Positions 7,986 through 44,173 of a stretch of 64,000 nucleotides of DNA are shown here, piece after piece (position 1 is the first letter of the stretch; the number at the start of each line of letters is the position of its first letter). The position numbers and the translations under genes were made by a program. The stretch lies in assembly GCA_026390795.1 (NCBI GenBank), contig JAPLFG010000003.1, positions 310,001-374,000 on the forward strand, written 5' to 3'. A model generated the notes under the pieces. It made no database searches. It saw only the letters and a program-made list of their open reading frames with translations, and was not told the origin of the DNA. This DNA comes from Ignavibacteriales bacterium (lineage in GTDB: Bacteria > Bacteroidota > Ignavibacteria > Ignavibacteriales > Melioribacteraceae).

Positions 7986-8016
7986 AAAAGTCGCCTCAAT
8001 TCAATAAGGCGACTTT
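7986..8016 (-). terminator. intrinsic terminator after the methyltransferase/T9SS-tail remnant
   Basis: The stem is AAAGTCGCCT paired with AGGCGACTTT around an 11-base loop. Read on the minus strand it is followed by TTTTTTATTATT. It would end transcription coming from 9099 through the remnant at 8041. Confidence 0.75.
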
Positions 8017-8040
8017 GGATTTGAGAATCTTGGCTAAAAG

Positions 8041-10348: not shown

Positions 10349-10945
10349 ATTTAAACCCCGATTTAATGAATAATTGAGTAATTAGTTTTGAAAACCGACT
10401 CTCAAATCTATTTGTTACAATTTTGCGATTTAACCTTTAAGCAAGGGCTGCGTTTTGATATTAAGCATTTGTTTCAAATAAGTTTTGAATTTCAAATATT
10501 TCATTAAAAATGTTGTCAAGATTTCCGCTAGAAATTACTGAAAACTTGTCAGTGATTGATTTAGTAAAGACTTCAAAAAAAATCAACCATAGTCGACAAT
10601 CTTTGTTGACTCATCATAGTTGTGAGAAAACTTTGGCAACTATTACCGCAACGTTCATTTTTTGGTGATTTACGGCTCATCACCTCAAATATTGCCTTAC
10701 TATTTTTGAGAAATACATTATGTATTATTCCACGAATAATATATCTTTTAAATTAAATACTTACATCAGTACAAGTACGGTTAGTAACTACGTGCAATGA
10801 TTATTTTATCTTTCTATAGATTAATTACTATTTTTTAAAATCGTCCGATCATTTGTTTAACATTTTCAGCCGAAGGCGGATACAATTTACAGACGATTTA
10901 ATAAAATGTAGTTGTAAAAAACGGTAAATAAATAATGTGTGAGAT
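10349..10945. other. 597-base intergenic region with one promoter-motif copy
   Basis: No convincing gene on either strand. It contains the shared motif at 10763-10780 and an imperfect dyad, GTCGACAA...TTGTTGAC, near 10595-10615. It separates the repeat lipoprotein from the 10946-11902 pair and could hold a long 5' leader of the lipoprotein mRNA. Confidence 0.45.
10763..10780 (-). promoter_or_regulatory. shared island promoter motif, copy B
   Basis: Coding-strand reading CCGTACTTGTACTGATGT, 16 of 18 bases as in the consensus. It points toward the lipoprotein gene at 9479-10348 but lies 415 bases from its start, much further than the other copies. Confidence 0.5.
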
Positions 10946-19608: not shown

Positions 19609-20064
19609 TCAGTTTTTTAAGGCAACATATGCGACAAGTCCTAATAAACCCAACGCAATAACGTCTGACAATGTTTTTGATTGAGCCCGTTTTTGAACAA
19701 AGTCACGTAACCATGCGAGTTGTGCTTCTGGTGCTTTTGCAATGTCAAGATATTTTATATCACCAAGCAAAGGTGGAAATGCTGCCCCAGGTTGTAAAAG
19801 CACCGGAAGAATATCTTTCCCTTCTGTTTTAGCAAGAAAAAGTTCGTTATTTACATACTTTGATTCACGAGCATTAGAAGTCCATAAAAGAACAAATAAA
19901 TCACTTCTTTTTATCTGATCTGATATTTCAATACTGAGGCTACTTCCTGCAGGAAGATCGTGTTCAGCTACGAATATATCCACATTGTTAAGCGCTAAAT
20001 GTTGTTTTAAATACTCTGCCCATCTGAGTTCATTTTGGGCATAACTAATAAATATATTATACAT
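19609..20064 (-). CDS. TIR-domain protein with C-terminal membrane helix
   Basis: A 151-residue protein from ATG 20064, which has GGGAG 11 bases upstream (a TTG at 20079 is unlikely). The TIR fold spans about residues 1-125: YNIFISYAQNELRWAEYL (box 1), VDIFVAEHDLPAG, IKRSDLFVLLWTSNARES, and NNELFLAK, whose Glu corresponds to the catalytic Glu of NADase TIRs. The last 20 residues (SDVIALGLLGLVAYVAL) form one hydrophobic helix, so it is probably tail-anchored. TIR proteins can destroy NAD during phage infection or act as scaffolds. It is a single gene without an obvious sensor partner next to it. Confidence 0.85.
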   Translation of the reverse strand: MYNIFISYAQNELRWAEYLKQHLALNNVDIFVAEHDLPAGSSLSIEISDQIKRSDLFVLLWTSNARESKYVNNELFLAKTEGKDILPVLLQPGAAFPPLLGDIKYLDIAKAPEAQLAWLRDFVQKRAQSKTLSDVIALGLLGLVAYVALKN

Positions 20065-20182
20065 AGTATAAACTCCCAAGCATTATATAAATAAATTGAA
20101 TTAGGAATAAACTAACACCATCTTTTCAGATAAAGATATAGAAATCAATAACAAGAAATTTGTTCATCAAAACAGTATTAAA

Positions 20183-22630: not shown

Positions 22631-23662
22631 TTAGAGTCGACTTATTTCCTTTTCAATTAATCTATATTTATCTTTTACGTCATCTCCTGAATAAAATTCA
22701 AACAAATCCTTTTTTGAAAGTGTACCTAAACTTAAAAAACGTCTTAGATATTCTTGATTAAATTCCATAAGAAGCATGGATTTATCTAGTTGCTTTAATA
22801 TGGCCCGATTGTTATCAATATTATTCAATACTAAGGATTTAATGGAAAGAATATCAGTCACGTCCTTAACAAGCCGATTGACTAAAATGGCTAATAAATC
22901 TTTGTCCAAATCAATAACTCTGGCATTAAGAGCAATATCTCTGGCCAGCATATAAGCAATAATAAGATTTGAATAATCTCCTTTCTGGGAATTAATGATA
23001 GCTATTAGGCCAACTCCGGGGATATAACCAACATTTTCATAAATTTTAATAATCGAACTATCGACTAATGATACATCAAATACTATGAGACTAACTTTGC
23101 TTTCTCTGTTGGCTTGTGACTCAATTAATTGGCTCCAAGCAGTGTCTGCTTTTCGGGTAAAAACATCTTTACTTTCAATATCACCTAAGCGAATACTCTT
23201 ATCAAATTTACATTCTATTGCAATTTTTAATTCAGAGTCGCTATTCACCTCACAAATAATATCACCAGTTTTATTTTTGGGAATTTTCCCGATGCTATTA
23301 CCTGTCAAAAAAGCTCGATCTCTTAATTTCCTATCCAAGAAATAAGCATTTAAATATTCTACAATATCATCTTCAGCCAAAGTCCCTTTAATAGTTGATT
23401 TAAAAAAGAGTTCCTTTTTCATATCAAAAATCATTTTCAAACTTTCCAATTCAGTTCCAAGCTCGTTGGAAGTTTTTGATAAAAAAGAGGAGATTCGGTC
23501 TTCCATTAATGCTAATACACCTATGTAAATCGCTTTTACTAGTTTGGATTCCCGCTCGTTAGCCGATAAGTTATTGAAATAATTAAACACAATATCGTTT
23601 TCAATTTCAAACTTTCCAAGCTCAACTCTTTTTAATTTTTGATTCAGGTTTATATTGCCCAT
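22631..23662 (-). CDS. PD-(D/E)XK-type nuclease of the SIR2-HerA operon
   Basis: A 343-residue protein from ATG 23662, which follows the KTSC stop by one base (TAAAATG); a longer frame to 23791 only overlaps that gene. Residues of about 120-165 carry a restriction-like core: GDIICEVNSDSELKIAIECKFD, with D...E-C-K spacing as in PD-(D/E)XK enzymes, followed by a Gln-rich helix (WSQLIESQANR). The N- and C-terminal parts are helical with no known domain. Being last in a tightly coupled operon with SIR2 and HerA suggests a DNA-cutting effector or accessory subunit of that system. Confidence 0.7.
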   Translation of the reverse strand: MGNINLNQKLKRVELGKFEIENDIVFNYFNNLSANERESKLVKAIYIGVLALMEDRISSFLSKTSNELGTELESLKMIFDMKKELFFKSTIKGTLAEDDIVEYLNAYFLDRKLRDRAFLTGNSIGKIPKNKTGDIICEVNSDSELKIAIECKFDKSIRLGDIESKDVFTRKADTAWSQLIESQANRESKVSLIVFDVSLVDSSIIKIYENVGYIPGVGLIAIINSQKGDYSNLIIAYMLARDIALNARVIDLDKDLLAILVNRLVKDVTDILSIKSLVLNNIDNNRAILKQLDKSMLLMEFNQEYLRRFLSLGTLSKKDLFEFYSGDDVKDKYRLIEKEISRL

Positions 23663-23663
23663 T

Positions 23664-23876
23664 TTAACCGATTTTTTGTTGTCTATATTTTTTATAAATA
23701 TTTTGATGCGCATATGTTCCTTTTGATTCAGCACTAAGTAGCCCATCATATTCGTATGATGGCACATCATAATAGTCATAAACGCTACCATCTTTAAACT
23801 GAATCTCTAAGACGGCTGTATTGGGATCGTAACCAACTGCTTCGATGTGTGATGAACTTACGTGTACCATTTCCAT
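23664..23876 (-). CDS. KTSC-domain protein
   Basis: A 70-residue protein that is almost entirely one KTSC domain: MVHVSSSHIEAVGYDPNTA, VLEIQFKDGSVYDYYDVP, YDGLLSAESKGTYAHQNIY. The domain is named for its occurrence at the C-terminus of some lysyl-tRNA synthetases; its role is not established, and it is frequent in accessory genes. It starts three bases after the HerA stop and ends one base before the nuclease ATG, so it is part of one translation-coupled operon. It may be an adaptor or inhibitor of the nuclease (inference). Confidence 0.85.
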   Translation of the reverse strand: MEMVHVSSSHIEAVGYDPNTAVLEIQFKDGSVYDYYDVPSYEYDGLLSAESKGTYAHQNIYKKYRQQKIG

Positions 23877-28523: not shown

Positions 28524-29158
28524 ATCTTTGAAATGCTTGCCTTCAGCTTATGTATTAGCCGAATAGGGCTGACGCCCCACAAGCACCCCGTCATTATATC
28601 AGTCTTGATGGGTATGTCAATAAGTCTGTGGATAAACATCAATTAGTTATAATAGTTTGAGATAAACTCAAATATAATTTTCCTATTACAACAAATTTAT
28701 CAACCTTTTATTATGGATTGATAAAACATATCATGAAGGAAATAAATCACGCAGCTTTGTGGAATAGAAAGATGTCATTATCTTCTGAATTAGATTCTTC
28801 ACCCTCTGAAATAGATTTCTCGAATACACGAATGTCTTTCTTCCATTTCTTGAGTTCTTCTTGCAATCGATTCCCACTAAATTCATTGAGGTGCACAAAT
28901 AATGACTAACTTGTCATTAGACACAGATGGTAAGTAAGTTAGATAAATACTAAGTTATATAGGGAAGAAGGGCTAGACAAGATTCCTCTTTTAAATTATT
29001 CGCCTTTTGATCAAAGCAGGATGTAATTATTTCTTTCTTTCGGTGATAGTAGGGTGGTTCTATTTATTTTTGTTATAATTCTTGCTACAATGAATTTGAA
29101 GAAATAAATTACACTTGTAATGTAAAGAGATTTGTTTAAATGGTGTTTTGGAGTTAAT
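28524..29158. other. 635-base region with a recombinase remnant
   Basis: It holds a GGGCTGACGCCC hairpin near 28567, a weaker CCCGTCA...TGATGGG pairing near 28585-28610, and the recombinase fragment described at 28747. No intact gene is seen. Confidence 0.5.
28747..28905 (-). pseudogene. C-terminal fragment of a serine recombinase
   Basis: The minus strand reads VHLNEFSGNRLQEELKKWKK, then DIRVFEKSIS and an acidic tail, then a stop at 28747. This matches the last 50 residues of the recombinase at 31639 (VHLNEFSWNQIIGELEEWQK...AIDSIEL). No catalytic domain or preceding frame is left. It is therefore the remnant of a second, older copy of that recombinase module, consistent with the paired XRE and small acidic genes nearby. 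Confidence 0.75.
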
Positions 29159-30454
29159 ATGTCCCAACAAAAAATAAAACAAATAAAGGTTAATGAACTT
29201 CGACTTTGGTCAGAAAATCCGCGTGATCCCATTGATCACAAGAGTACGGATTTTGATGTCATTAAACGTGCTATCGACGATAACCCAGATCAATGGAATC
29301 TTGACAAACTTGTAAAGGAGATGGGCGCTCATTATGATTTTAGTGAAATCCCAACTGTTGTATATCTAGAAGGAATACCCGTAGTCTTTGATGGCAATCG
29401 GCGTGTGGCAGTACTTAAATATTTGCAAAACAAAGAACTCTATTCAACTTTGACTGGAAAATTGTTTTATAACGACGGGCCAAAGGGATTACGGGAACTT
29501 CATGAAATCCCATGTAATGTTTGTGATAAGGAGACAGCATTGACTAACATTGAGAGGAAACACGTAAACAATGGCTCTTGGGGAACAATACAACGGGAAT
29601 ATTTTTTACATCAACATCGTGGTCAACCTAAAAGTTTGTTCCTTTTAATTGAAGAACAAACTGGATTAATTAGTGCTTTCCCGATAATGAATCAAGGCTT
29701 TGTGAAAGATGAAATTCTTACAGAGAAAAATTTGAAAGACGTAGGATTTGGTTTGAAGGATACAAAATTAATTTCTATTTATAAAGACAAACAACAGGAA
29801 AAAGATATATTACAGAAGGTAGGTTCCTTGGTAGAAGATAAGGATATAACAACAAGAAAAAATCGTGGTTTGCTAAAGAAACCGTTATTAGCGAAGTATC
29901 CAGAAAATAAAAATATTATAAAAACATTAAATGAATCACAAACTAATGAAGATGTTACAACTCGATTTGATAGTGTAAGTGATGCTTCTGTTCGCAGAAC
30001 ATCAATTACATCCACTTCTGATGAACTTTTTGGTCGCAAGCTTATTCTAGAAAGTGGACCCGTTAACAACTTGTATTGTGGTGTAACTGATGTGTATGAA
30101 CGATTTAAGGATAAAGAGAATGTATTGCCAATAATTGCTATGTCCTTCCGTCTTATACTAGATGTTGCGGGGCGGTTATATTACGAAAGCCGAGACGAGA
30201 CTATTTCACAGGAGGATCAAATAAGCAACCGGTTTATAAAGGATGCTAAATCCGCGCTGAAAAAAGATTGGGCACAAATGAAAAAAAATTCCACCTCTCT
30301 AACTTTAGAGTGGATTTCAGATAAGTATAGTTTAGAAGCTATTCTACATAAATTTGCACATGGCAATATCGATTATTCTAAACAAACAATAGTGCAGACA
30401 TCTAAGATTGTTGCAGAAATACTTGAATATTATTTTAAAAAGAAGAGTAAATGA
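29159..30454 (+). CDS. ParB/sulfiredoxin-fold domain protein
   Basis: A 431-residue protein from ATG 29159, with GGAG five bases upstream. The N-terminal domain (about 1-90) is ParB/Srx-like: VNELRLWSENPRDPIDHK with the ENPR box, and VVFDGNRRVAVLKYL with the G-N-R-R nucleotide-binding motif. Residues 130-200 contain RKHVNNGSWGTIQ, a motif often following in these proteins; the C-terminal half is helical. ParB-fold proteins bind CTP or act as nucleases, and which applies is open. It overlaps the Dam gene by four bases, so the two act together. Confidence 0.75.
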   Translation: MSQQKIKQIKVNELRLWSENPRDPIDHKSTDFDVIKRAIDDNPDQWNLDKLVKEMGAHYDFSEIPTVVYLEGIPVVFDGNRRVAVLKYLQNKELYSTLTGKLFYNDGPKGLRELHEIPCNVCDKETALTNIERKHVNNGSWGTIQREYFLHQHRGQPKSLFLLIEEQTGLISAFPIMNQGFVKDEILTEKNLKDVGFGLKDTKLISIYKDKQQEKDILQKVGSLVEDKDITTRKNRGLLKKPLLAKYPENKNIIKTLNESQTNEDVTTRFDSVSDASVRRTSITSTSDELFGRKLILESGPVNNLYCGVTDVYERFKDKENVLPIIAMSFRLILDVAGRLYYESRDETISQEDQISNRFIKDAKSALKKDWAQMKKNSTSLTLEWISDKYSLEAILHKFAHGNIDYSKQTIVQTSKIVAEILEYYFKKKSK

Positions 30455-31308
30455 AATTATATTCACCCTTAAGATATCCAGGCGGAAAACGCAAACTAGC
30501 TAACTTCATTGCTAGAGTTTGTGAAAGGAATGTGGTTCGAGGGCATTATATTGAGCCATATGCTGGTGGGGCTGCAGTAGCATTATATTTGCTATTGCAG
30601 GAAGTTGTTGATGAAATTACCATCAATGATAAAGATCGTTCAATATATGCTTTTTGGTATTCGGTTAAGCATTATCCTTTACAACTTTGTGAATTGATAA
30701 ATAAAACCCCTATAAGTCTATCAGAATGGAAAAAACAAAGAGAAATACAAAAAAAGAAAAAAGATGCTTCTTTGTTAGAGCTCGGTTTTTCAACCTTCTT
30801 TCTCAATCGAACAAATCGATCGGGCATAATTGAAGGTGGCCCTATTGGTGGAATTAAGCAGACAGGAGATTATAAAATTAATTGTAGATATAACAAAAAA
30901 GAATTGATTTCTCGGATAAAAAAAATAGCCGAGAAAAAAGGTAAGATCCATGTTTATAACCTTGATGCTATAGAGTTAGTGAAGAAATTGGAATTATCAC
31001 AAAAAGTAAAAAACGGAATATTTTATTTTGATCCGCCATACTTTTTGAAGGGCGAGAGCTTATATCTTAATTCATATAATTTTGATGATCATGTGGAAGT
31101 CTCACGAGTTATCAAATCCATCAAGAATAGTCATTGGATTCTGACTTATGACAATACTCTACCAATAAGAGAACTTTATAAATCATATCGTTCAAAACGA
31201 TATACATTACCGCATTTTGCATATAAACCTAGAATAGGAAAAGAAATTATGTACTTGAGTAACCATCTTTTAATACCTAAGACGATATTTGTCCAATATA
31301 TTTGTTAA
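30451..31308 (+). CDS. Dam-type DNA adenine methyltransferase
   Basis: A 285-residue protein with complete DNA N6-adenine MTase signature: RYPGGKRKLANFI at the N-terminus, YIEPYAGGAAVALYL (SAM motif I), FLNRTNRSGIIEGGPIGG, and IFYFDPPYFLKGE (catalytic DPPY, near residue 195). It modifies adenine in a short DNA site, and the target is unknown. It overlaps the ParB-like gene by four bases; no restriction gene follows. With its partner it could be a modification-based defence or an element-protection pair. Confidence 0.88.
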   Translation: MKLYSPLRYPGGKRKLANFIARVCERNVVRGHYIEPYAGGAAVALYLLLQEVVDEITINDKDRSIYAFWYSVKHYPLQLCELINKTPISLSEWKKQREIQKKKKDASLLELGFSTFFLNRTNRSGIIEGGPIGGIKQTGDYKINCRYNKKELISRIKKIAEKKGKIHVYNLDAIELVKKLELSQKVKNGIFYFDPPYFLKGESLYLNSYNFDDHVEVSRVIKSIKNSHWILTYDNTLPIRELYKSYRSKRYTLPHFAYKPRIGKEIMYLSNHLLIPKTIFVQYIC

Positions 31309-31638: not shown

Positions 31639-33297
31639 TCAAGCAACATTACGATATAGTTGCCTTATATCATCTGAATTGGAATTTGATGACTGACTAG
31701 TCAACTCTATAGAGTCGATTGCTTTTTGCCACTCTTCCAACTCCCCGATAATCTGGTTCCAACTGAATTCATTGAGGTGCACCAAAGCGGATTTTGAAGC
31801 GTCAAAAGACTGAATAAGCTCGAAAACATAACCCAATTTTGTGGTTCCAAGTCCTTGGCCTCTCTTAAATGGAATTCCATCTGGAAACACTAATTTTTGG
31901 AACCGTGTCTTTTGTGCAATTGGCATGAGGAGCCATTTTTGAGCTAGAGCGCCAATAAAATCAATTACATAAGCCATCACCTCCTCGAGATTGAATTCCT
32001 CGTATTTATGTCTGTTTAGCTCTGTTTTACAAACTTCTATCTCACCTTCGATTTCATCTCTTCTCTTTTGAAATTCTTCTTTTGTATAGGAACCATCTTC
32101 ACGCATTTCAAAGATGCGGTTTTTCTTAGCTTTCAGTATAGAAATGCACGCCTCATTTCTTTTTACATCTGTTTCAGATTGTTTGCCGCGTTCTTTCCAT
32201 ACATCAATAATCGAATCTCGAAATACATTAAACCATTTTTCTTTTGGAATAATCTTTTCAAGAATTTTTATAAATTCGCTTTCCAGAAGATTTTTCCCAA
32301 TCCCCTTGCCATACATTGAGCATAGCTTATAAGCACAATGGTAATATGGATAATTGCCACCATTGCCATGCACTATACTGCCCGTAAGAGGTCGATTACA
32401 TTCGCCACACAGTATTGTGCGACGCAATGGAAACAAAGGGTTGTACTTAGCTCGTATGAGTGAATTATTGCGGGAATTACCTGAGAGAACCATTTGAATC
32501 TGATACATCTCATCTTTCGTGATCATCGGTTTATGAAGTCCTACTATTTCTTCTTTTGTCCAAGGATTCACAATAATTCCAGCATAAAACTTGAGACTGT
32601 TTCTGAGCATTCGATCTACCATTTGTGGGGTAGGATTTTTTCCAGATGAAGTTTTTAATCCCCATTCTTTCAACATGCGTATTATGTCGGTTTGTCGATA
32701 AACGTTTCGCGCGTATTCTCTTAATGCTCTTTGAATGATGGGAAATGTTTTTTCATCTGGTGGGTCAGGTTCAGTTTTTTTCTCCCCCCTCTTTTTAAAA
32801 TTTGCGCACGCATATCCGATCGGTGGCCTGAAAGGATAAATTCCTTGATTGATGCGGGCTAACATTCCATCAGTGCAACGCTGTTTACGTAATGCATTAT
32901 CATATTCTGCCGCACCCGCAAGAACGGTTTCAATAAATTTTTCTGCTGGTTTATTTCCAATTGGTTCGGTTACTGAATACAGCGTTGTTCCATATCCTAA
33001 TAATATTTTTCTCACTGCAAAGTGATCTTCAGTATTACGCGCAAATCTATCAACTCGCAAAACAATGAATGCATCTATTTGGTTTTTATTTCTTCTACAA
33101 TACTCTAATGCTTCCAAGAATTTTTCCCGATTATTCAGACTCAAATCTTTAGCCGACTCTCCCTCCTCTCGATAGATTTCTACAATTTCAATATTTTTTT
33201 GTTCACCGTATTTACGACAAAGCTCCTCTTGAAATTCTAAAGAGGTACCATTTACTTGTTCGTCGCTAGATACTCGTGTGTATATGATGCCTTTCAT
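31639..33297 (-). CDS. large serine recombinase
   Basis: A 552-residue protein. The resolvase catalytic domain covers about residues 1-150: IIYTRVSSDEQ with the nucleophile Ser, VLRVDRFARNTEDHF and the helix leading to DNA. The Recombinase domain follows (GYACANFKKRG... VDRMLRNSLKFYAGIIVNP), then a zinc ribbon (CGECNRPL...YYHCAYKLC) and a coiled-coil (about 375-440). Such enzymes integrate and excise elements at att sites. It is preceded on the same strand by the small acidic protein at 33408 and followed by a broken XRE gene. The one at 41638 sits at the element boundary, so this one may belong to a nested element. Confidence 0.9.
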   Translation of the reverse strand: MKGIIYTRVSSDEQVNGTSLEFQEELCRKYGEQKNIEIVEIYREEGESAKDLSLNNREKFLEALEYCRRNKNQIDAFIVLRVDRFARNTEDHFAVRKILLGYGTTLYSVTEPIGNKPAEKFIETVLAGAAEYDNALRKQRCTDGMLARINQGIYPFRPPIGYACANFKKRGEKKTEPDPPDEKTFPIIQRALREYARNVYRQTDIIRMLKEWGLKTSSGKNPTPQMVDRMLRNSLKFYAGIIVNPWTKEEIVGLHKPMITKDEMYQIQMVLSGNSRNNSLIRAKYNPLFPLRRTILCGECNRPLTGSIVHGNGGNYPYYHCAYKLCSMYGKGIGKNLLESEFIKILEKIIPKEKWFNVFRDSIIDVWKERGKQSETDVKRNEACISILKAKKNRIFEMREDGSYTKEEFQKRRDEIEGEIEVCKTELNRHKYEEFNLEEVMAYVIDFIGALAQKWLLMPIAQKTRFQKLVFPDGIPFKRGQGLGTTKLGYVFELIQSFDASKSALVHLNEFSWNQIIGELEEWQKAIDSIELTSQSSNSNSDDIRQLYRNVA

Positions 33298-33831: not shown

Positions 33832-34428
33832 CTACTCCAAATTAATTTTTTTCTTTAGTTCAAGTATAAATTCAGTTAATTGATTAATCGACTCCTCTAA
33901 ATGATTAAACTTATTCCATATTATTTGAAGAGGAATGCCTAAAGAAACACAACATGTAGTTGCAGCAATAATATTCATCTGTTGATCTTCATTCAATATC
34001 TCATAAGATTGATTAATTAAATCTCTTTTCGCTGAACGATTCTGTTTTTTATTTTTTATATCATTAAGGTCATCTGCGATAACCACAATACCTATTGTGT
34101 TTCGTTCCTTTAATATATCTGGACTCGTAAAGGTATACCAAAGTTTTTTAATTCTAGGAGCCAGATGTGTTTCGAGAATCAATAATTCTTCCCCAGACAT
34201 TTTTAATAAATTCGATCTTGCCAGACTAACTGATTCTGCCAAAAAAGATGGGGCGAAATTAATGATATCATCATGAGAATCAGATTTCATCCCTAATGAA
34301 TTAGCACATTCGACTATTAAATCTGCAAAATCAACAAATCTGATACCTAGTTGATTTGCGGTCATTTTAGCAACAGTTGTTTTGCCAGATCCAGAGATTC
34401 CAATTATTTGTATAATACCTTTATTAAT
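33832..34428 (-). CDS. P-loop kinase-like NTPase, apparent ATT start
   Basis: Translated from an ATT at 34428 this gives 198 residues with a Walker A (GISGSGKTTVAK, residues 10-21). The first ATG (34365) lies inside that P-loop helix and would remove it. Upstream, GGGAGGA lies seven bases before the ATT, and an in-frame TAA lies a few codons further, so no ATG, GTG or TTG is available. The remainder resembles small adenylate-kinase-like proteins (FVDFADLIVE; LETHLAPR then IGIVVIADD; a terminal coiled-coil). It is last in the radical SAM operon, 29 bases after its stop. Confidence 0.65.
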   Translation of the reverse strand: MNKGIIQIIGISGSGKTTVAKMTANQLGIRFVDFADLIVECANSLGMKSDSHDDIINFAPSFLAESVSLARSNLLKMSGEELLILETHLAPRIKKLWYTFTSPDILKERNTIGIVVIADDLNDIKNKKQNRSAKRDLINQSYEILNEDQQMNIIAATTCCVSLGIPLQIIWNKFNHLEESINQLTEFILELKKKINLE

Positions 34429-34456
34429 GATTGCGTCCTCCCTTTTTTATAAATAA

Positions 34457-35488
34457 TTAGGAAATCCAACATTGTGGATCACTTGCAAGATAACTTCCTT
34501 TAACATGATATGCGGAGCCTCTACACCCGTAACAAACATTCGCATACTCACAAATTTTACATTTTCCTTTGATCGATTCTCCGATATGTCTTAGTTCCGT
34601 GATTGTTCTTGAACGCAATGCATCACTTATCTTTCTAGTGCGAATATTCCCTAAAGAAACTGTAACTCCACTGCAAGGCTGAATTTCTCCATTCGATGTA
34701 ATGTAGAGAGCATAATAATGGTGATAACACCCTCTCGTACCAGCAAATGGTGGATGTGGTAACCATTTGATATTAAATTCTTCCATATCAATTTTTGAAA
34801 GTTTCTCAAAAAGGTTTTTAATATCTTCCGTTGAACATTTATTCAAAAGTTTTGTGCTCCTACCAAATGGGGTTAATCGTTCAACAACGGGTATTATTTT
34901 ATTATTACGAGCCCAACGCCAAATAGAAGGTAGTTCAGAAATATTCTCTTTTAAGATAACTGTTTCGATACTTAATTTATGATTTGCAGTTGGATAACCA
35001 ATCCCCATCAGAATATTTAATGAATTTTGTATTTGTTCAAAACTCCCTTTTACTCCACACAATTTATCTTGAACTTTTTTATCAAAACTATTTAACTTAT
35101 GTACAATTGAAACACCCTTATCATATAAAAACGAAGCCCATTCCTTATCTATTAAGACACCATTGGTAAATAAGGAAATACTTATTCCTCTCTGAAAAAT
35201 ATAATTTATTAGATTTTTGAGATTTTCATAAAGTAAAGGTTCACCCCCGCCAATAATACCAATCTTTTTTACACCAAGAAGTGTAGCTTCATCAACAGTT
35301 TTTAATAATTCTTCGTAGGTTAATTCATTTTTTAGAGGCTTCCCCGAATTAGCATAACAATACACACATTTCAAATTGCATTGTCTCGTAAGTTCTAAAC
35401 CCAATCCTAAAATCTTATCACCGGCAATTGCTTCAGTAAGATCTGTCTTGCTAAATCCTGTTAGTTGAGAAAGTAAATCAATATCCAT
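34457..35488 (-). CDS. radical SAM/SPASM-domain enzyme
   Basis: A 343-residue protein from ATG 35488 (SD AAGG; an in-frame TTG at 35503 is less likely). The radical SAM cluster motif CNLKCVYC is at residues 37-44, followed by GGGEPLLYENL and SLFTNGVLI. The C-terminal SPASM domain has the auxiliary-cluster cysteines: GCYHHYYALYI...PCSG, then CKICEYANVCYGCRG and a final DPQCW. SPASM enzymes often modify peptides or sugars. It sits in a compact operon with a DUF43-like protein, an unknown protein and a P-loop kinase, so a modification pathway is likely. The substrate is not known. Confidence 0.88.
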   Translation of the reverse strand: MDIDLLSQLTGFSKTDLTEAIAGDKILGLGLELTRQCNLKCVYCYANSGKPLKNELTYEELLKTVDEATLLGVKKIGIIGGGEPLLYENLKNLINYIFQRGISISLFTNGVLIDKEWASFLYDKGVSIVHKLNSFDKKVQDKLCGVKGSFEQIQNSLNILMGIGYPTANHKLSIETVILKENISELPSIWRWARNNKIIPVVERLTPFGRSTKLLNKCSTEDIKNLFEKLSKIDMEEFNIKWLPHPPFAGTRGCYHHYYALYITSNGEIQPCSGVTVSLGNIRTRKISDALRSRTITELRHIGESIKGKCKICEYANVCYGCRGSAYHVKGSYLASDPQCWIS

Positions 35489-35563
35489 TCCGACCTTCGT
35501 CAAACTAAAATAGTGTTACATCTAATCAAAAACTAATTGTTATTTATTTGAGAAAAGCTCTCG

Positions 35564-36277
35564 TTATTCATCAGTCTGCAAACGACCAAAAACTCCCAAC
35601 TTTGATTTTGGAATTTTATCTGAAAAGAGATTTTGTTGGAAAGTTTCATCTTTTTTCATGTGAATTGCATATGGAGGTAATATTTCCGCAACCCAACTTA
35701 CTGTGATGAATGATGGATCAGAATTATCAGTATGACCAGATAATTCGATACAAGCCTTATCTGTTCTAAATTTTAAATACTCACTTGCATTTTTTCCTTT
35801 ACTTGCACCTGAAGCAACAGAATATTTGGACAAATCAAATTGAAAATTTGATTTAGTTAAATTTCGACAAATAATCGCCTTGTCACACCCCGTGGTAAAC
35901 AAATTTTGAGGTAGTGCGAACCACCTCATTTTATCTAGAGAAAAATATTTACTTCTAACTGGAGAATTCTTAAAGGGCGATTTAGTTTCAATCATAAAAA
36001 TAAAAAACTTATTTCCTAATTTGGTTTTGGATTCAAAATGCTTCCGTGTATCAATCACATTAAGAAGGTTTCCTGAATATCCCCAAAGCATAAAGCCATA
36101 ACTAATATGTTCTGATTTTTTTCTGTTTAAAATTTCTGTGAAGCTTTCGGCTCCGTGACTACCAACTTTCATGAGAATACAAGAATGGACAGGATACGTT
36201 TTATTTCGGAAAAAAAGCTTTGGAATTTCTTCATCAATCAAAAATATTTTTGATTTTTGTTCTGTATTATTTTTCAT
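35564..36277 (-). CDS. unknown protein of the radical SAM operon
   Basis: A 237-residue soluble protein with no family I recognise. It begins with EEIPKLFFRNKTYPVHSCIL and has a central part rich in aromatic and basic residues (KMRWFALPQNLFTTGCDKAI). There is no P-loop, DxD or zinc motif. The ATG lies inside the last codons of the 36267 gene (11-base overlap), so translation is coupled. Four genes on one strand within 3 kb make it a likely component of the same pathway. Confidence 0.6.
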   Translation of the reverse strand: MKNNTEQKSKIFLIDEEIPKLFFRNKTYPVHSCILMKVGSHGAESFTEILNRKKSEHISYGFMLWGYSGNLLNVIDTRKHFESKTKLGNKFFIFMIETKSPFKNSPVRSKYFSLDKMRWFALPQNLFTTGCDKAIICRNLTKSNFQFDLSKYSVASGASKGKNASEYLKFRTDKACIELSGHTDNSDPSFITVSWVAEILPPYAIHMKKDETFQQNLFSDKIPKSKLGVFGRLQTDE

Positions 36278-37088
36278 TTTCCCATAAGATTAATTGCCCG
36301 TCCTCTTCGATGTAATGAGGAAGTGTATTGTTGTGATCACCATAAAAATTTTTAAGGTATTCACTGGGAACAACTGAATTCGTCCAGGGATGGGGGATGT
36401 AATTAATTCTGTCCATAACTACATAGCCTGAAGCAAGAATAGGATTGTCCGGTAAATGATACTTATGTAATCCACAAATCATCTCTGAAACTGAATATCC
36501 ATGATCGACAACAAATTTTTGAATGTTATACATAGCAGTAATAGACCAAGGATGCCCACTACCATATGGTAAAATAGCTATTCCATATGATTTGGATTTC
36601 TTTGACAATTCCATACATCGGGATAAAAATACAATTCCACTATTGCCACAATTCTTCGATCCATATGGTGGATTCGTATAAAATACATCTGCTTGTTCTA
36701 CAAGATCTTTAGGTACAGTTTCAAATACATTATAAGAACGAACATCAATTATATGGCCGAATCCTTCTGCATTAGCGAATCGCTTGATATGGGATAGTGT
36801 TCTTTTATCCATATCTAGCACAGTCATATAACTTGGCTTTGGAATTATACCATGATGAGAGAAAATCCCAAACATCATACTCATCCCATCCCCATCGCCT
36901 ACAAAAATAATATGTTTCCCACCTATATAATCGTGCATCAGAAGGGTTTGTAGAATCATACCGCCCGACATCATATAAATTTGATCATTGTCTCTCAGTG
37001 CGGGAGGTCTCGATAGAACGACTTTATCGGCTAAATCGACCCAATCTTTTTTGAAAGGAATACCGGCTTCTAGAATTTCGTGATTCAT
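36267..37088 (-). CDS. DUF43/BpsA-like methyltransferase-fold enzyme
   Basis: A 273-residue protein. The Rossmann core shows HIIFVGDGDGMSMMFGIF (motif I), MTVLDMDKRTLSHIKRFA (acidic loop) and QADVFYTNPPYGSKNCGNSG, followed by IVFLSRCMELS. The NPPY-type motif and the FLSRxxEL helix resemble DUF43 aminopropyltransferases (branched-polyamine synthase, BpsA) and N4/N6 methyltransferases. The exact reaction is open: aminopropyl or methyl transfer. It is the second gene of the operon, downstream of the 71-residue gene, and its last codons overlap the next gene. Confidence 0.7.
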   Translation of the reverse strand: MNHEILEAGIPFKKDWVDLADKVVLSRPPALRDNDQIYMMSGGMILQTLLMHDYIGGKHIIFVGDGDGMSMMFGIFSHHGIIPKPSYMTVLDMDKRTLSHIKRFANAEGFGHIIDVRSYNVFETVPKDLVEQADVFYTNPPYGSKNCGNSGIVFLSRCMELSKKSKSYGIAILPYGSGHPWSITAMYNIQKFVVDHGYSVSEMICGLHKYHLPDNPILASGYVVMDRINYIPHPWTNSVVPSEYLKNFYGDHNNTLPHYIEEDGQLILWENEK

Positions 37089-37105
37089 TATCCCCGATTG
37101 GAAAA

Positions 37106-37321
37106 TTATAATTTAATTTTGAAATTGTGGTTTACTCTAACATCTCTCCTTTCGTAGCTAGAATTGAAGCTCATATAAGTCCGATTATGAATTTCAGTAA
37201 ACCATTTTTCCCAGATTGTTTTGTTTTCTTCTGAGGGTCGATTTTCTGTATGAGAAACTCGACGGTCACTGGTTTCCAATTCTTTCAAAGAATAGATTTG
37301 ATTGATGGGTTTCATCTTCAT
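37106..37321 (-). CDS. 71-residue protein at the head of the radical SAM operon
   Basis: A small hydrophilic protein: MKMKPINQIYSLKELETSDR, ENKTIWEKWFTEIHNRTYM, SFNSSYERRDVRV. It has no Cys and no signal peptide. It ends 17 bases before the DUF43-like gene and is likely co-transcribed. As the smallest gene of a locus with a SPASM enzyme it could be a precursor peptide, but it lacks the repeat or Cys/Gly-rich core usual in such peptides. No family is recognised. Confidence 0.5.
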   Translation of the reverse strand: MKMKPINQIYSLKELETSDRRVSHTENRPSEENKTIWEKWFTEIHNRTYMSFNSSYERRDVRVNHNFKIKL

Positions 37322-37530: not shown

Positions 37531-38487
37531 TTAATTCAACATAGCAACAGCACAAGTAAATGCTTTCTTCTTGAGCGCGTCTCCCGATCCATACCACATG
37601 GATTTTAATCGCATTGAACTGTTTTTTGATTGCAGTCGAATATGATCGACATATTCAGTAACCGCGTTATACGCACCCCATAATGTCCCTCTTGATAATT
37701 CAGCACCAACTCCAACCTCACTCAACTCCATAATTCTTTCATGAATTTCTTTTGTTCGGTTACTTTGTAATGTGAAAATTGGTTCTGGAAATATCTGATT
37801 GAGGTATTGAGTAAACATGGTTGCATTAATCATCTTTTGACTCATGCCGACATAGTATTGTCCCAAGATTTCAAAGAGCCTATTACTAAGTCCCAGAATC
37901 TCATGTGCTTGTTTTAACTTTTCTTCAGCTTGTGTGGTGTGTCGAATATGCACTTCTTGTTCCGTTCCCTGTAAGGCAACTGATAAGGTATTTTCACATA
38001 TGACACGAATCGGTGTGAGTTTTACCGTAACCGCACTTGAACCATCATGGGTATTGGTTAACAATAGAAACGGTTCGACGATATCATGTTTATTGACTCG
38101 TATATATTCCGGTAATTTAGCCAATATCCAAATCCGTTCACCCTTACCCAACGCACCAGCTGTATGATAGATTGCACTCCCTTCACCCACTAATGCATCG
38201 AAGGTAGAGAATGCATCTTTATTTTGAATCGGTGTATAGCGCGAACCAACAACACCCAATACTTGCATGGTATCGATTCTCACGGTTGCATAATGATCTG
38301 TAACTGGTATGTTGTGCACCGCAATCCGTAAGGGCATTTTTTCAACACGGAATCCAAGACCCGCAGCTTGTATAGCTTCTGATGCCGTTGCAGGTTTATC
38401 AAGTTTGGTTCCTAAGGTATGCCACGGTGTTTCACCTACATACATCATTGAGGCAACTCCATTAACGATATTAATATTATGACTCAT
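37531..38487 (-). CDS. DUF932 phage/plasmid-type protein
   Basis: A 318-residue protein of the DUF932 (TIGR03299) family: MYVGETPWHTLGTKLDKPAT, GFRVEKMPLRIAVHNIPV, VLGVVGSRYTPIQNKDAF, VKLTPIRVICENTLSVAL. The family is common on plasmids, phages and ICEs and has no proven role, although links with replication or recombination are suspected. A good SD (GGAG) precedes the ATG. It forms a block with the Cas4-like nuclease and the 118-residue protein on the same strand, separated by about 80 bases. Confidence 0.88.
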   Translation of the reverse strand: MSHNINIVNGVASMMYVGETPWHTLGTKLDKPATASEAIQAAGLGFRVEKMPLRIAVHNIPVTDHYATVRIDTMQVLGVVGSRYTPIQNKDAFSTFDALVGEGSAIYHTAGALGKGERIWILAKLPEYIRVNKHDIVEPFLLLTNTHDGSSAVTVKLTPIRVICENTLSVALQGTEQEVHIRHTTQAEEKLKQAHEILGLSNRLFEILGQYYVGMSQKMINATMFTQYLNQIFPEPIFTLQSNRTKEIHERIMELSEVGVGAELSRGTLWGAYNAVTEYVDHIRLQSKNSSMRLKSMWYGSGDALKKKAFTCAVAMLN

Positions 38488-38564
38488 GACTTATTCTCCT
38501 TCCAAATGTTTATAAATGAATGCCCTGTGTAAACAGGGCATATAAATGTGTTCAATGAAGCTGT

Positions 38565-39368
38565 TTATGCCGCATAGAGTGATTCTGCTTTAGGAGCTGT
38601 CGCCTTGTTTTTAAACAATGGACAGATATCCGCATACTCACATTCTTTGCACCAAAAGCTTTGACGAGGAATAAAGATTTCTGCTTTGATTCCTTTTAAT
38701 ACTTCTTGTGCCGTGTGTAGAAATCCAAGATGATCATTTTTATCACGCTTGGTTTCTATCACCACGATCTTTGGTTTCTTCCCTTTTACAAAATCTACAA
38801 CTCGAATTCCTTTCGGTGATTTGCGAAAGAGTAACTGATACGCATAACTGTATGCCGTTAATTGAATACGTGCATCAATATCACTTGCACTCAATGCGAT
38901 AGCTGATGTTTTGTATTCAACGATGGTGCCGTCTTCCTCAATGAGATCAAAGTATCCTTCAAGTGCTATCTCTAAATCAGGTCCTTCGGTAGGTGAGCGC
39001 AAGGGGACGGTAAATGGCACTTCGCACCCTTTTACTTTGGGATGTTTCTCTTGAAAAAAGATCGTAAGCATTTCTCTTCCGGTGTTGAGTAGATTCATTT
39101 CTTTTTCACTTTCTTTGAAATGAATATTCACATCAATGCACTGACTATACCAGTCGGCATCAAATATCCGATAGAGCTTTTCAAGAGTAACGACATTACC
39201 CTTCATGGTTTCTTCATGAAACCAGGCAAGGGTGGAATGCAATGCACTCCCAAACGCAAGTGCCGAAGGACGAAACGGTTTAGGAAGTAGATCGATGTAT
39301 TGATATCGATACTTCAAACCGCATTGAAGATAGAGATTAATTTGACTTGCTGATAAATGATTAATCAT
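38565..39368 (-). CDS. RecB/Cas4-family exonuclease-like protein
   Basis: A 267-residue protein from ATG 39368, which overlaps the upstream gene's stop (ATGATTAA). It starts with INHLSASQINLYLQCGLKYR, the Cys-containing N-terminal segment of RecB/Cas4 nucleases. The active-site stretch is IEEDGTIVEYKTSAIALS (D..E-Y-K), followed by a Gln-Tyr helix (IQLTAYSYAYQLL). The final CKECEYADICPLF brings the remaining Fe-S cysteines. Such enzymes degrade DNA ends in recombination. With DUF932 it forms a typical mobile-element recombination block. Confidence 0.85.
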   Translation of the reverse strand: MINHLSASQINLYLQCGLKYRYQYIDLLPKPFRPSALAFGSALHSTLAWFHEETMKGNVVTLEKLYRIFDADWYSQCIDVNIHFKESEKEMNLLNTGREMLTIFFQEKHPKVKGCEVPFTVPLRSPTEGPDLEIALEGYFDLIEEDGTIVEYKTSAIALSASDIDARIQLTAYSYAYQLLFRKSPKGIRVVDFVKGKKPKIVVIETKRDKNDHLGFLHTAQEVLKGIKAEIFIPRQSFWCKECEYADICPLFKNKATAPKAESLYAA

Positions 39369-39714
39369 GCCCACCCCCCCGTTCTTCTTCGAGTAAGCGT
39401 TCAATCATTTTACTTGCCTCAAATTTTGAAACCTCTTTGAGCGAATTGGCATTAAAGAGTTCTTTGAGTTTTTCAAACGCTTGATCACCTTCGAGATGAT
39501 AGTTCGTAGCGATAAGCCGGAAAAGCAGCCGTTTTTGTGGATCAGTGACTGCTTCTCCGTTGGATCTGCCATTGCCCTTCACTTCGGGCCTTGACGAACT
39601 TTGGATCTGCGATTCTGATTTTGTTTGAAGAGAAATCGCAATGTCGGTGAGTACTGCTTTGAACAGTAGAATTCCGCTTGGGGTATATACTTCGATTGAT
39701 TTTGCTGGTTGCAT
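39361..39714 (-). CDS. hypothetical protein of the element recombination block
   Basis: A 117-residue protein from ATG 39714 (SD GGAGGA), rather than from the longer frame at 39753. The N-terminus is a short beta segment (SIEVYTPSGILLFKAVLTD), then a Ser/Gln-rich linker, then a helical C-terminal domain (RLLFRLIATNYHLEGDQAF, LKEVSKFEASKMIERLLEE). The C-terminal pattern resembles small DNA-binding annealing-type or phage recombination accessory proteins, from memory. It overlaps the nuclease start and is probably its partner. Confidence 0.6.
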   Translation of the reverse strand: MQPAKSIEVYTPSGILLFKAVLTDIAISLQTKSESQIQSSSRPEVKGNGRSNGEAVTDPQKRLLFRLIATNYHLEGDQAFEKLKELFNANSLKEVSKFEASKMIERLLEEERGGGHD

Positions 39715-39855
39715 CTGTTCCTCCTTTTTTAAGTTGTGATGAGCTATGATCATCTTCCTTCAAAAAGGGGTGAGCAATAAGAGAGGATAATTTGCGTGTA
39801 TAGACAAAACCACACTGCTTATTTCAGTATTGAAGTTTATATATGATCGATTCAT

Positions 39856-41187
39856 ATGGAACACATACAACATGATGCACAATCGATCACCCCCATTGCA
39901 CTCACTAATTGGCGCGATATCCGAAAGAAGTTTGGTATCAAAGAGAAGAACAGACGGGGTCACATGTATATTGTCGGTAAAACGGGAACGGGAAAATCAA
40001 GTTTACTTGCTCAGATGGCAATCTCAGATATTAATCAAGGTAATGGTCTTGCAATAATTGATCCACATGGAGATTTAGCAGAGACTTTGCTATCACACAT
40101 TCCCAAAGAAAGAATTAATGATGTGATTTATTTTAATCCGAGTGATGGTGAATATCCGATTGCATTTAATCCACTCGCGCATGTTTCACTTGGCTCTCAT
40201 TATCTCGTTGTGTCTGGATTGATTTCGGTATTTAAAAAAATATATGCAGAATTTTGGGGACCACGATTGGAACACATTTTACGTTACTCATTTTATACCT
40301 TACTTGAATATCCACAGGGAACATTACTTAATGTGCCAACTTTATTAACGAATGCAGAGTTTCGTAAACACGTGTTGGCATTTTGTACCCAAGAACAAAT
40401 ACGAACATTCTGGACAACAGAGTTTGATAAATATTCACCCTACTTTCGCTCTGAAGCCATTGCACCAATACTCAATAAGATGAGTCACTTTCTCACTAAT
40501 CTTCCCTTACGCAATATTGTCGGTCAAGTGCAAAATACATTTCGATTCAGAGAGATTATGGATCAAGGGAAAATTCTTATTGTAAATCTTTCAAAAGGAA
40601 AATTGGGTGAAGATACCAGTTCGTTATTAGGTTCAATGATTACGACTATGATTTTTCTTGCCGCTATGAATCGGGCAAATGTTTCAGAAGATCAGAGACG
40701 ACCGTTTTATTTCTATGTTGATGAGTTTCATAATTTCATGACGCTTTCTTTTGCGAACATTCTTTCTGAGGCACGAAAGTATGGACTCAATTTAGTTTTA
40801 GCACATCAATATGTAAAACAATTACAAGAGCCGGTTCGTGATGCAATCTTTGGTAATGTAGGAACGATGATTGCATTTCGAGTGGGTGTTGATGATGCAC
40901 GCTATTTAGCAAAAGAGTTTGAACCTACCTTTGCAGAAACTGATTTGATCAATCTTCCCAATTATAACATTTGTATTAAACTTATGATTGATGGGATTAC
41001 CTCAGTTCCCTTTAGCGGAGTAACACTTCCATTACCATTGCCTAAGAATACAATGAAAGATGAAATCATCACTTATTCACGTGAGCGTTATACGAAGCCT
41101 CATGAATTAATCAGAAAAGAAATTCAAACAAATGTTTATTCTCAAATTCCTAATGAAAAAAAGCAAAAAAGACTCTTTGATTATTGA
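39856..41187 (+). CDS. VirD4/TraG-like coupling ATPase
   Basis: A 443-residue protein. Walker A is VGKTGTGKSSLL at about residue 38, followed by LAIIDPHGDLAETLLS; Walker B is FYFYVDEFHNFMT at about residue 285, then ARKYGLNLVLAHQYVKQL (arginine/glutamine sensor). It is shorter than the 889 homologue and has neither an N-terminal membrane part nor a C-terminal nuclease-like domain. The closest relatives are transfer ATPases of mobile elements. It is divergent from the recombination block and followed by the small 75-residue gene. Confidence 0.82.
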   Translation: MEHIQHDAQSITPIALTNWRDIRKKFGIKEKNRRGHMYIVGKTGTGKSSLLAQMAISDINQGNGLAIIDPHGDLAETLLSHIPKERINDVIYFNPSDGEYPIAFNPLAHVSLGSHYLVVSGLISVFKKIYAEFWGPRLEHILRYSFYTLLEYPQGTLLNVPTLLTNAEFRKHVLAFCTQEQIRTFWTTEFDKYSPYFRSEAIAPILNKMSHFLTNLPLRNIVGQVQNTFRFREIMDQGKILIVNLSKGKLGEDTSSLLGSMITTMIFLAAMNRANVSEDQRRPFYFYVDEFHNFMTLSFANILSEARKYGLNLVLAHQYVKQLQEPVRDAIFGNVGTMIAFRVGVDDARYLAKEFEPTFAETDLINLPNYNICIKLMIDGITSVPFSGVTLPLPLPKNTMKDEIITYSRERYTKPHELIRKEIQTNVYSQIPNEKKQKRLFDY

Positions 41188-41637: not shown

Positions 41638-43146
41638 ATGGATGGAAATAAATCAATAGGTATTTGGATTCGTGTTTCAACTGAAGATCAGGTAAAAGGT
41701 GAAAGCCCCGAACATCATGAGAAACGTGCTCGTTATTATGCAGAATCGAAAGAATGGAATATTAAAGAAGTATATAAGCTTGAGGCCGTAAGTGGTAAAT
41801 CAGTCATGGAACATCCCGAAACCCAACGGATGCTTTCAGATATCAAGTCAGGAAAAATTACGGGAATTATATTTTCTAAACTTGCTCGCTTGGCAAGAAA
41901 CACAAAAGAGCTTTTAGAATTTGCAGAAATATTTAGAAAGTATAATGCCGATCTTATTTCTCTCCAAGAATCAATCGATACCTCAACACCCGCCGGAAGA
42001 TTATTTTATACGATGATTGCGGCTATGGCTCAGTGGGAACGCGAAGAAATTGCTGAACGAGTTGCCGCATCTGTTCCCGTTCGCGCTAGGATGGGAAAAC
42101 CATTAGGAGGACAAGCTCCTTTTGGGTTTCAGTGGCTTGATAAAAAACTTATTCCTGATCCTAAAGAAGCTCCAATCAGAAAACTTATGTATGAATTATT
42201 CATTGAGCATAAACGTAAAAAAACTGTTGCACGTTTATTAAATGAATCTGGTTATAGAACTCGCAACAGTTCAAAGTTTAGTGACACTACAGTGATGCGA
42301 CTACTTCAAGACTCAAGTGCAAAAGGACTTCGTCGAGCAAACTATACCAAGAGTTTGGGTGCCAATAAAAAATGGGAATTAAAGCCACCATCGGATTGGG
42401 TATTTATAGAAATAGAACCGATCATTTCTGAAGAACTTTGGAATCAATGCAATCAAATTTTGGACGAGCAGCAAAAAGCAAATCACCGCCCTACTAAAAA
42501 GGCAACACATTTATTTACCGGATTTGTATTCTGTGACTGCGAGACCAACGGTAATAAAATGTATGTGCCTTCGAATTCACCAAAATACATTTGCCAAAAG
42601 TGCCACAATAAAATTGGAATTTCTGATCTTGAGTCTATTTTCCATGAACAATTAAAAAGCTTTCTTCTTTCTCCTAAAGAAATGATGCAATATCTCAATA
42701 CGGCTGATCATTCTATTCGGGAAAAAGAGGAACTTCTTACTACACTTCTCAAAGAACAGTCTAAAATCAAGCTAGAGATGGACAAATTGGTACAGCTACA
42801 CTTAGCCGGGGAGTTACCCAAAACAGGCTTTGGAAGTCATTATAAGCCCCTTGACGAACGTTATATACAGATGGAGAATCAAATCCCTGAACTACAAGCT
42901 GAGATAGACTTTCTTAAGATTCAGTTCCTTTCTAGTGATGAAATACTTCGCGAAGCGAAGGATCTATATGATCGGTGGGAAACATTTAATTCTGATGAAA
43001 AACGTAAGATTATTGAGACTATTACCGATAAGATAACTATTGGACAAAATGATATTTCTATACAGCTTCAATACGTTTCCGCCGGGGATAAATTGATGAC
43101 AGAAAGGCAACACAACTTCAAGGATTCATTGCTGCAGCAAGCATAA
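41638..43146 (+). CDS. large serine recombinase at the element boundary (integrase)
   Basis: A 502-residue protein. The N-terminal catalytic domain is [14 protein letters not shown] (nucleophile Ser near residue 12), [17 protein letters not shown], then [16 protein letters not shown]. The Recombinase domain is [16 protein letters not shown]...[16 protein letters not shown] zinc ribbon (CDCE...YICQKCHNK) and a coiled-coil follow, as in phage integrases. The last nine codons lie inside the host comM sequence: the frame overlaps the comM fragment by 29 bases in the opposite direction. This makes it the likely integrase of the island. Confidence 0.9.
43118..43146. other. element/chromosome junction in comM (candidate attR)
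   Basis: The comM frame ends with a new stop at 43118 directly after ...LAAAMNP, while the integrase frame reads through to 43146. The core of the att site is probably the GCTGCAGCAATGAATCC stretch around 43121-43140. The opposite junction is not in the window. Confidence 0.6.
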
Positions 43147-44173
43147 AATTTGCGGGGAACTCAAGAGACATTTTCGATCGGCTTACGGTAACTTTGTAAT
43201 CTTCAAGCGGTTGGCGCAAAACTTCTAAAACATTTTTCTTGAACTCCGGCAGCTCATCTAGAAAAAGTACTCCATGATGCGCATAAGAAACCTCTCCGGG
43301 ACGTGGAATGGTTCCGCCACCAATTAAAGCTGCATCAGAAATTGTATGATGTGGACTTCTAAATGGACGCTCGGTTATTAGAGCCTGATCTTTACGGAGA
43401 ATTCCGGCAATGGAATGAATTTTTGTTGTCTCAAGTGCTTCTTCAAAATTGAGCGGCGGAAGAATTGAAGGAAATCTTTTAGCCAGCATCGTTTTGCCTG
43501 AACCAGGCGGTCCAATCATTAAAATATTATGTCCGCCGGCTGCGGCAATTTCAAGAGCGCGTTTAACATTCTCTTGACCTTTGACATCTGAGAAATCCAG
43601 CATATAAGTATTTACTTGAGAAAATATTTCATCTTTGTTCGTATAAACAGGATCAAATTTTGCTTCTTCATTTAAGAATTGAATTACTTCCGTCAGATTT
43701 AGCAAACCATAAACTTCTATTCCATCAACTATAGATGCTTCTTTCACAGATTCTGCAGGAAGAATTATCTTTTTAATACCGAGTCTTCTTGCTTCAACAG
43801 TAATTGGCAGTGCACCTTTTATTTTACGAAGAGATCCATCAAGTGAAAGTTCTCCTAGAATAAAAGTTTGATTGAGTAAATCCGGATTAATTATTTCTGT
43901 TGCGGCAAGAATTCCAACCGCGATTGGTAAGTCGAATGAACTGCCTTCTTTCTTAATATCTGCAGGGGCTAAGTTGATCGTAATTTTTTTAAGTGGAAAT
44001 TCAATACCGGAATTTTTAATAGCTGCAAGCACTCTTTCCTTGCTCTCTTTTACCGCGTTATCTGGCAAGCCTACAATCGTAATAGACGGAAGTTGTTTCT
44101 CATAATGAGTTTCAACTTCTACCAGATAAGCGTCAATACCAAATGTAGCACCGGAGAGGATCTTAGAAAACAT
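43118..44173 (-). pseudogene. comM: comM/yifB (Mg-chelatase-like) 5' part, truncated by integration
   Basis: 351 residues remain of a protein usually about 510 long. The ChlI domain (about 20-140: [33 protein letters not shown]) and the AAA+ core are intact up to Walker A ([16 protein letters not shown] near 222) and Walker B ([11 protein letters not shown] near 298). The protein stops at AAMNP, where normally CPCG and the C-terminal sensor and lid follow. ComM is a helicase for branch migration in natural transformation. The 3' part should lie at the other end of the element, so excision could restore the gene. Confidence 0.88.

Follow-up and report, generated by a model that had tools for sequence, protein, structure and literature searches.

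A divergent copy of a widespread multi-gene cassette, probably linked to nucleic acid modification, in a mobile island of an Ignavibacteriales bacterium

The 64,000-nucleotide stretch of Ignavibacteriales DNA analyzed here (JAPLFG010000003.1, positions 310,001–374,000; referred to as the window) carries between positions 33832 and 37321 a run of five open reading frames (ORFs), all on the minus strand. Coordinates are positions in the window, except those marked C3, which are contig positions in the same genome (G000), and those given with a locus label such as L089, which are positions in that locus. Three of the encoded proteins, the BpsA-like Rossmann enzyme P0004, the unfamiliar protein P0003, and the P-loop kinase P0001, belong to a mobile cassette of several genes that is widespread and keeps its catalytic motifs intact, and the operon of the window is probably a divergent, horizontally acquired version of it. 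The cassette itself is probably a defense or toxin–antitoxin system linked to the modification of nucleic acids. The explanation that we favor, with a probability of about 0.42, is that the operon represents a divergent version of a mobile, modification-linked toxin or defense cassette that follows a writer–reader–protease–effector logic.

The cassette conserved around P0003

In the first step, plasmid records were searched by tblastn with P0004 and P0003, and relatives of both proteins were found next to each other on the same five plasmids. At four of these loci the annotated neighbors include a P-loop protein, located either upstream or downstream, as well as an ImmA/IrrE protease accompanied by a PIN-like protein. 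When P0003 and P0004 were used as single sequences to scan genome and viral contigs, no match was obtained, since the window proteins are too divergent, and an alignment-based scan then succeeded. In that scan, 84,980 species genomes were searched with the P0003-family alignment only (A4), yielding 115 P0003 relatives, with 80 loci kept; viral contigs added three. Together with the plasmid loci, a locus in genome G058, and the window itself, the set comprises 89 distinct loci, counted one per locus and including some near-identical copies. Since the search was built on relatives of P0003 alone, the partner genes described below were not selected for.

In 87 of the 89 loci, the P0003-family gene is directly preceded by a BpsA-like gene in the same orientation, and the two genes overlap or touch in nearly all of them. 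The two exceptions are L041, where the contig is cut at its end, and the phage contig L089. A gene for a PIN nuclease is present in 81 loci, one for an ImmA/IrrE protease in about 80–83, and one for a longer paralogue of P0003 (U2b, the P0003 family itself being U2a) in about 78, whereas a P-loop kinase of the archaeal adenylate kinase class is found in 37–38. Usually, the BpsA-like and P0003-like genes occupy one strand, with the PIN and ImmA/IrrE genes convergent on the other, and the U2a and PIN genes overlap tail to tail in 55 of the 78 convergent cases. In a small branch (L002/L130, L034, L069, L077, and L084), the PIN nuclease is replaced by a protein with two transmembrane segments (two-TM protein), and the ImmA/IrrE protein is also shorter wherever the extent of the contig allows this to be seen.

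The catalytic motifs of these proteins are well preserved. The HExxH motif is conserved in all 80 ImmA/IrrE proteins (80/80), the active-site acids of the PIN nucleases at 97–100%, and Walker A in 36 of 37 kinases, while the BpsA-like enzymes carry NPP[FYWH]G in 85 and G[DE]GD in 84 of 87 loci. The loci span at least nine phyla (Pseudomonadota, Cyanobacteriota, Acidobacteriota, Actinomycetota, Myxococcota, Bacteroidota, Planctomycetota, Chloroflexota, and Verrucomicrobiota), and the cassette is also carried on plasmids and in phage-like contigs. Small-ORF clusters that appear among the neighbors are mostly artefacts of overlapping frames.

The cassette is apparently undescribed so far: the combination of a BpsA-like enzyme, P0003, PIN, and IrrE was found neither in the literature searched nor in PADLOC-DB 2023, which is not proof of novelty, and neither P0003 nor U2b matches a family in Pfam, NCBIfam, PADLOC, or PHROGs. 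An earlier note on this DNA, which had called the five genes unfamiliar and knew of no described system with this set, was borne out for the BpsA-like enzyme, the protein of no known family, and the frequent kinase. Its treatment of the five genes as one unit did not hold, as the radical S-adenosylmethionine (SAM) enzyme P0002 has no match in any other cassette locus and the 71-residue ORF P0005 has no relatives. The condition under which the note would have been refuted, a lack of co-occurrence elsewhere, is answered in part: two of the genes always occur as a pair, the kinase often joins them, and the radical SAM gene and the 71-residue ORF do not. In turn, the PIN nuclease or two-TM protein, the ImmA/IrrE protease, and the P0003 paralogue, all present at other loci, had escaped it. 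The main correction to that reading is that the radical SAM gene stands apart, and PIN and IrrE are the partners of interest. Their presence, along with that of the paralogue, points to a toxin or defense circuit more than to a small-molecule pathway.

The predicted writer, its partner, and a possible mechanism

P0004 (36267–37088, 273 residues) matches PF01861 (BpsA_C, DUF43-like) with 67 bits, against a cut-off of 27. The profile of its family aligns with the BpsA structures 2qm3 and 5xnc (E values of 1e-16 and 3e-15), and the C-terminal Rossmann domain is homologous to that of BpsA, the N4-bis(aminopropyl)spermidine synthase. BpsA requires both Asp159 and Asp160 of its GDDD motif (PMC12979288). 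In the P0004 family this motif reads GDGD (36888–36899 in the window, placed by alignment), with Gly at the position of Asp159 and only Asp160 retained, and membership among the BpsA aminopropyltransferases was rejected because this essential residue is replaced. The family also differs from BpsA in the absence of the N-terminal domain of about 120 residues, with the match beginning near BpsA residue 128, in the change of DPP to NPP[WYF]G, and in a genome context unrelated to polyamines. The alignment stops short of the C-terminal acidic aminopropyl-carrier cluster of BpsA.

The same family profile also matches METTL5, an rRNA N6-adenosine methyltransferase, around its NPPFG-type motif, although this match is weak (E value of 5e-5). 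The corresponding NPPY motif IV of P0004 lies at 36663–36674. NPP[YFW] is characteristic of methyltransferases that act on exocyclic amino groups. Next to the P0003 relative on the T4-like phage contig L089, the place of the BpsA-like gene is taken by a gene for a protein with an N6_N4_Mtase domain. Taken together, the GDGD motif, the missing N-terminal domain, the METTL5 match, the NPP[YFW] motif, and the methylase of L089 lead us to infer that P0004 is a SAM-dependent amino-group methyltransferase, the putative writer of the cassette, rather than an aminopropyltransferase. The L089 contig (1–12045) carries genes for the gp23 capsid protein and the tail sheath, and the P0003 relative (2803–3366) follows directly after the LAGLIDADG/N6_N4 methylase gene (983–2806).

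The earlier note had envisaged a multistep modification of a nucleobase, nucleotide, polyamine, or small peptide, and part of that idea stands, as modification chemistry with a nucleobase target is plausible. A small-molecule or modified-nucleotide pathway, in which the BpsA-like enzyme would transfer an aminopropyl group or one like it, the kinase would phosphorylate, the radical SAM enzyme would rearrange, and P0003 would be a further pathway enzyme, appears unlikely given the PIN and IrrE partners. It can draw on the fact that the best solved relatives of P0004 are aminopropyltransferases, that kinases of this class have AMP-like substrates, and that the window copy carries no toxin, and the invariant K, H, E, R, D, and C residues of the P0003 family could be catalytic. 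Nevertheless, the loss of Asp159 and of the N-terminal domain, the tight linkage to PIN and IrrE at other loci, the DNA methylase in the place of the enzyme in L089, and the lack of conservation of the radical SAM gene all speak against it.

P0003 (35564–36277, 237 residues), the second member of the core, is predicted to form an alpha/beta barrel and is homologous to its longer paralogue U2b (hhalign 97.8%, E value of 1e-12). AlphaFold models reach a pLDDT of 83.5 and a pTM of 0.81 for P0003, and a pLDDT of 92.1 for U2b. When the models were compared with the Protein Data Bank (PDB) using Foldseek, YTH-domain readers of N6-methyladenosine (m6A) topped the list for P0003 and were the highest-probability matches of U2b, although neither model has a significant match in the PDB. 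Two tryptophans, Trp65 in a WGYxG context (36083–36085) and Trp119 (35921–35923), are invariant among 52 aligned sequences of the family, and their sequence context, judged by eye, resembles that of the cage tryptophans of YTH domains. These features offer a lead, based on predicted folds, that P0003 and its paralogue may be PUA/YTH-like readers. Searching the PDB sequences with the U2a profile returned only chance matches, mainly to antibodies; a viral structure library gave no match, and no prokaryotic YTH protein that could serve as a bridge was found.

The METTL5 match also bears on an alternative akin to restriction–modification systems, in which the BpsA-like enzyme, with P0003 as its obligate stabilizing subunit (as TRMT112 is for METTL5), would methylate a site in transfer RNA (tRNA) or ribosomal RNA (rRNA) and thereby shield it from the PIN RNase, with no reader involved. 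PIN toxins cleave tRNA and rRNA, and the overlapping or touching genes of the enzyme and P0003 would suit such a complex. We nonetheless judge this toxin–antitoxin scheme improbable, as PIN is absent from the window and replaced by the two-TM protein in one branch, the paralogue U2b would need some other role, and the fold leads point to YTH instead of the zinc domain of TRMT112.

Under the favored explanation, the Rossmann enzyme would methylate the exocyclic amino group of a nucleobase in a SAM-dependent reaction, P0003 and its paralogue would act as the partner of the enzyme and as readers with a PUA/YTH-like barrel, and the kinase would act on nucleotides. In complete cassettes, the IrrE protease may act as the sensor of infection or damage and then free the PIN RNase in the manner of VapBC52, or let the membrane protein act, leading to a growth stop. 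In the window, the inserted SPASM radical SAM enzyme might add a further modification step or serve as a replacement output. We can speculate further that the cassette is an immune circuit, in which an m6A-like writer marks self RNA or DNA, two YTH-like reader paralogues monitor the mark, IrrE signals, and PIN or the membrane protein executes, with the writer–reader core recoupled to radical SAM chemistry in the window; this more elaborate version seems to us somewhat doubtful. If the cassette is indeed a modification-linked toxin or defense system, it would unite IrrE-controlled PIN toxins with base writers and readers, two themes known separately, and would provide a candidate bacterial reader of amino-methylated bases. 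The conserved set of partners allows its function to be put to a direct test in hosts that are easy to grow.

The window copy and its island

In the order of transcription, the operon consists of P0005 (37106–37321), P0004, P0003, P0002 (34457–35503), and P0001 (33832–34428). As the earlier note had stated, the genes form a single-strand run with overlaps or small gaps: P0003 overlaps P0004 by 11 bp, and the remaining gaps measure about 17–80 bp. The gene identities given there were also reproduced, with P0004 belonging to BpsA_C, P0002 to Radical_SAM (PF04055, 89 bits) and SPASM (PF13186, 34 bits), and P0001 to AAA_17 (38 bits), and with no family for P0003. The 71-residue ORF P0005 is present, but its status as a gene, which has no independent support, is doubtful; no relative of it was found, and it matches nothing in Pfam, NCBIfam, or PHROGs. 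Considered as a dedicated precursor peptide of a SPASM maturase (RiPP) system, it thus has no counterpart for comparison.

P0002 contains the CxxxCxxC cluster motif of radical SAM enzymes at 35357–35380, and its translation more likely begins at ATG 35488 than at TTG 35503. It is an add-on specific to the window. A search of 96 related genomes recovered only a distant pair of relatives (33% and 28% identity) in one genome, with no cassette gene recognized nearby. The P-loop of P0001 (GISGSGKT, 34378–34401) lies upstream of the first ATG (34365), so the kinase cannot start there. A strong Shine–Dalgarno sequence, GGGAGG, precedes ATC 34431 and ATT 34428, making it likely that one of these rare codons serves as the start. 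P0001 was assigned to the archaeal adenylate kinase class; its match to the archaeal adenylate kinase model PRK04040 (72 bits) is below the cut-off. In a profile comparison with the cassette kinases it gave a P value of 1e-4, above 30 shuffles, although pairwise BLASTP matches were weak.

Several observations weigh against the favored explanation. No gene for a PIN nuclease, an ImmA/IrrE protease, a two-TM protein, or U2b was found within the window, so that the toxin part of the scheme cannot apply to the window copy as it stands, and the nearest IrrE gene, although in the same island, is about 55 kb away. That gene, encoding a protein with a helix–turn–helix (HTH) and an ImmA/IrrE domain (G000:C3:289582–290691), was considered as a partner and rejected on account of this distance and of its own HTH. 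The window proteins occupy by far the longest branch of the family tree, and a nearby kinase is missing at many loci. In addition, the Foldseek matches to YTH and EVE domains have E values of at least 0.13, probabilities of at most 0.16, and a TM-score of about 0.2, and the abundance of YTH entries in the PDB inflates their count among the matches. Comparison by hhalign of the P0003 and U2b family profiles with EVE, and likewise with two YTH sequences that had been confirmed beforehand against PDB chains, was not significant; homology to EVE was rejected, and YTH, for which these two sequences gave no profile support, was retained solely as a fold lead.

Some of these points would equally suit a remnant, that is, a cassette of BpsA-like enzyme, P0003, and kinase that has lost its protease and toxin and whose neighboring radical SAM gene is an unrelated acquisition of the island. 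The long branch, the absence of PIN, ImmA/IrrE, and paralogue genes, the radical SAM gene seen at no other locus, and the 71-residue ORF with no relatives are all in its favor. However, the four longer ORFs are intact, keep their conserved motifs, and are tightly spaced on one strand, and we regard a remnant as an unlikely explanation. The view of the operon as a divergent, horizontally acquired version of the cassette agrees with the identity of P0003 and P0004 to all their relatives (only about 25–35%) and with the distribution of the family, which among the genomes sampled from the phylum and class of the window occurs in G000 and G058 only, a rarity that fits horizontal transfer. In G058, from the same order as the window genome, the L130 cassette (7926–10851) is of the two-TM type, with its kinase split in two frames, and it adjoins a transposase-like ORF and a gene that is SIR2-like by eye. 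Some of the other loci, taken individually, also lie near defense genes, such as ABC-three-component, Abi, and AbiE genes.

The operon resides on a mobile island, an insertion of about 83 kb in comM. The N-terminal half of comM/yifB (43118–44173) ends at 43118 with ...AAMNP, and the C-terminal half (G000:C3:269179–269736) resumes with CPCGFF... at about C3:269.7 kb. Two large serine recombinases (31639–33297 and 41638–43146) bracket the operon region, the second ending inside comM/yifB. The description of the island as rich in defense cargo was confirmed by a SIR2–HerA anti-phage pair (23880–26848; PADLOC scores of 392 bits for SIR2 and 528 bits for HerA), by a PD-Lambda-5-type pair just past the recombinase from the operon (29132–31308), consisting of a PD-Lambda-5_A-like protein and a D12 adenine methylase (PD-Lambda-5_B, 378 bits), and by a TIR-domain protein (19609–20079), possibly a further defense gene. 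A gene encoding a 386-residue protein of no assigned function (22631–23791) adjoins SIR2–HerA, and a pair at 4912–6997, consisting of a patatin-like phospholipase and a DNA/RNA non-specific endonuclease, may also serve defense. The DUF932 protein, PD-(D/E)XK nuclease, and TraD/TrwB-like coupling ATPases at 37531–41187 and 889–3918 are conjugation or mobile-element genes surrounding the operon. Two very similar XRE/HTH ORFs of about 150 residues are found at L135 (3649–4119) and at G000:C3:287287–287745, one of which spans the C-terminal comM junction of the island.

Comparison with known systems

In having a nucleotide-kinase-like gene as the neighbor of its radical SAM gene, within a defense island, the window copy is reminiscent of prokaryotic viperins (pVips) and their associated kinases. 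However, P0002 carries a SPASM domain and scores 63 bits with the NCBIfam viperin model, against a cut-off of 180 bits, and was rejected as a viperin. For P0003 and its paralogue, the YTH-domain m6A readers that lead the fold matches, below significance, may be the closest likeness.

The complete cassettes resemble two described toxin–antitoxin themes. A PIN gene beside COG2856/IrrE is one of them (PMC2701414), and in VapBC52 the IrrE antitoxin cleaves itself when triggered by single-stranded DNA, a step believed to release the PIN toxin (PMC13273310). In about 80 relatives of the window operon, a PIN nuclease with an acidic active site likewise lies beside an IrrE protease with intact HExxH, as in VapBC52 and other PIN/ImmA-IrrE pairs, including RosmerTA and CapP-type regulators. 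Unlike these, the cassette adds the BpsA-like enzyme, two P0003-type paralogues, and often the kinase, whereas the window copy is devoid of the PIN/IrrE pair.

The second theme comes from Bell et al. 2020 (PMC7641849), namely the (PIN)-GNAT-EVE operons that also carry ASCH and AAA_17 and are predicted to form a toxin–antitoxin family connected with base modification. The cassette resembles them in its PIN nuclease, its AAA_17 P-loop protein, the theme of base modification, its two suspected PUA-like proteins, and its defense surroundings. No Pfam EVE or GNAT domain occurs in the core members of the cassette, P0003 and its paralogue have no EVE profile match, and among the matches listed neither a GNAT family nor any further conserved neighbor family was recognized. 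What distinguishes the cassette from the (PIN)-GNAT-EVE operons is its BpsA-like Rossmann enzyme and its IrrE protease.

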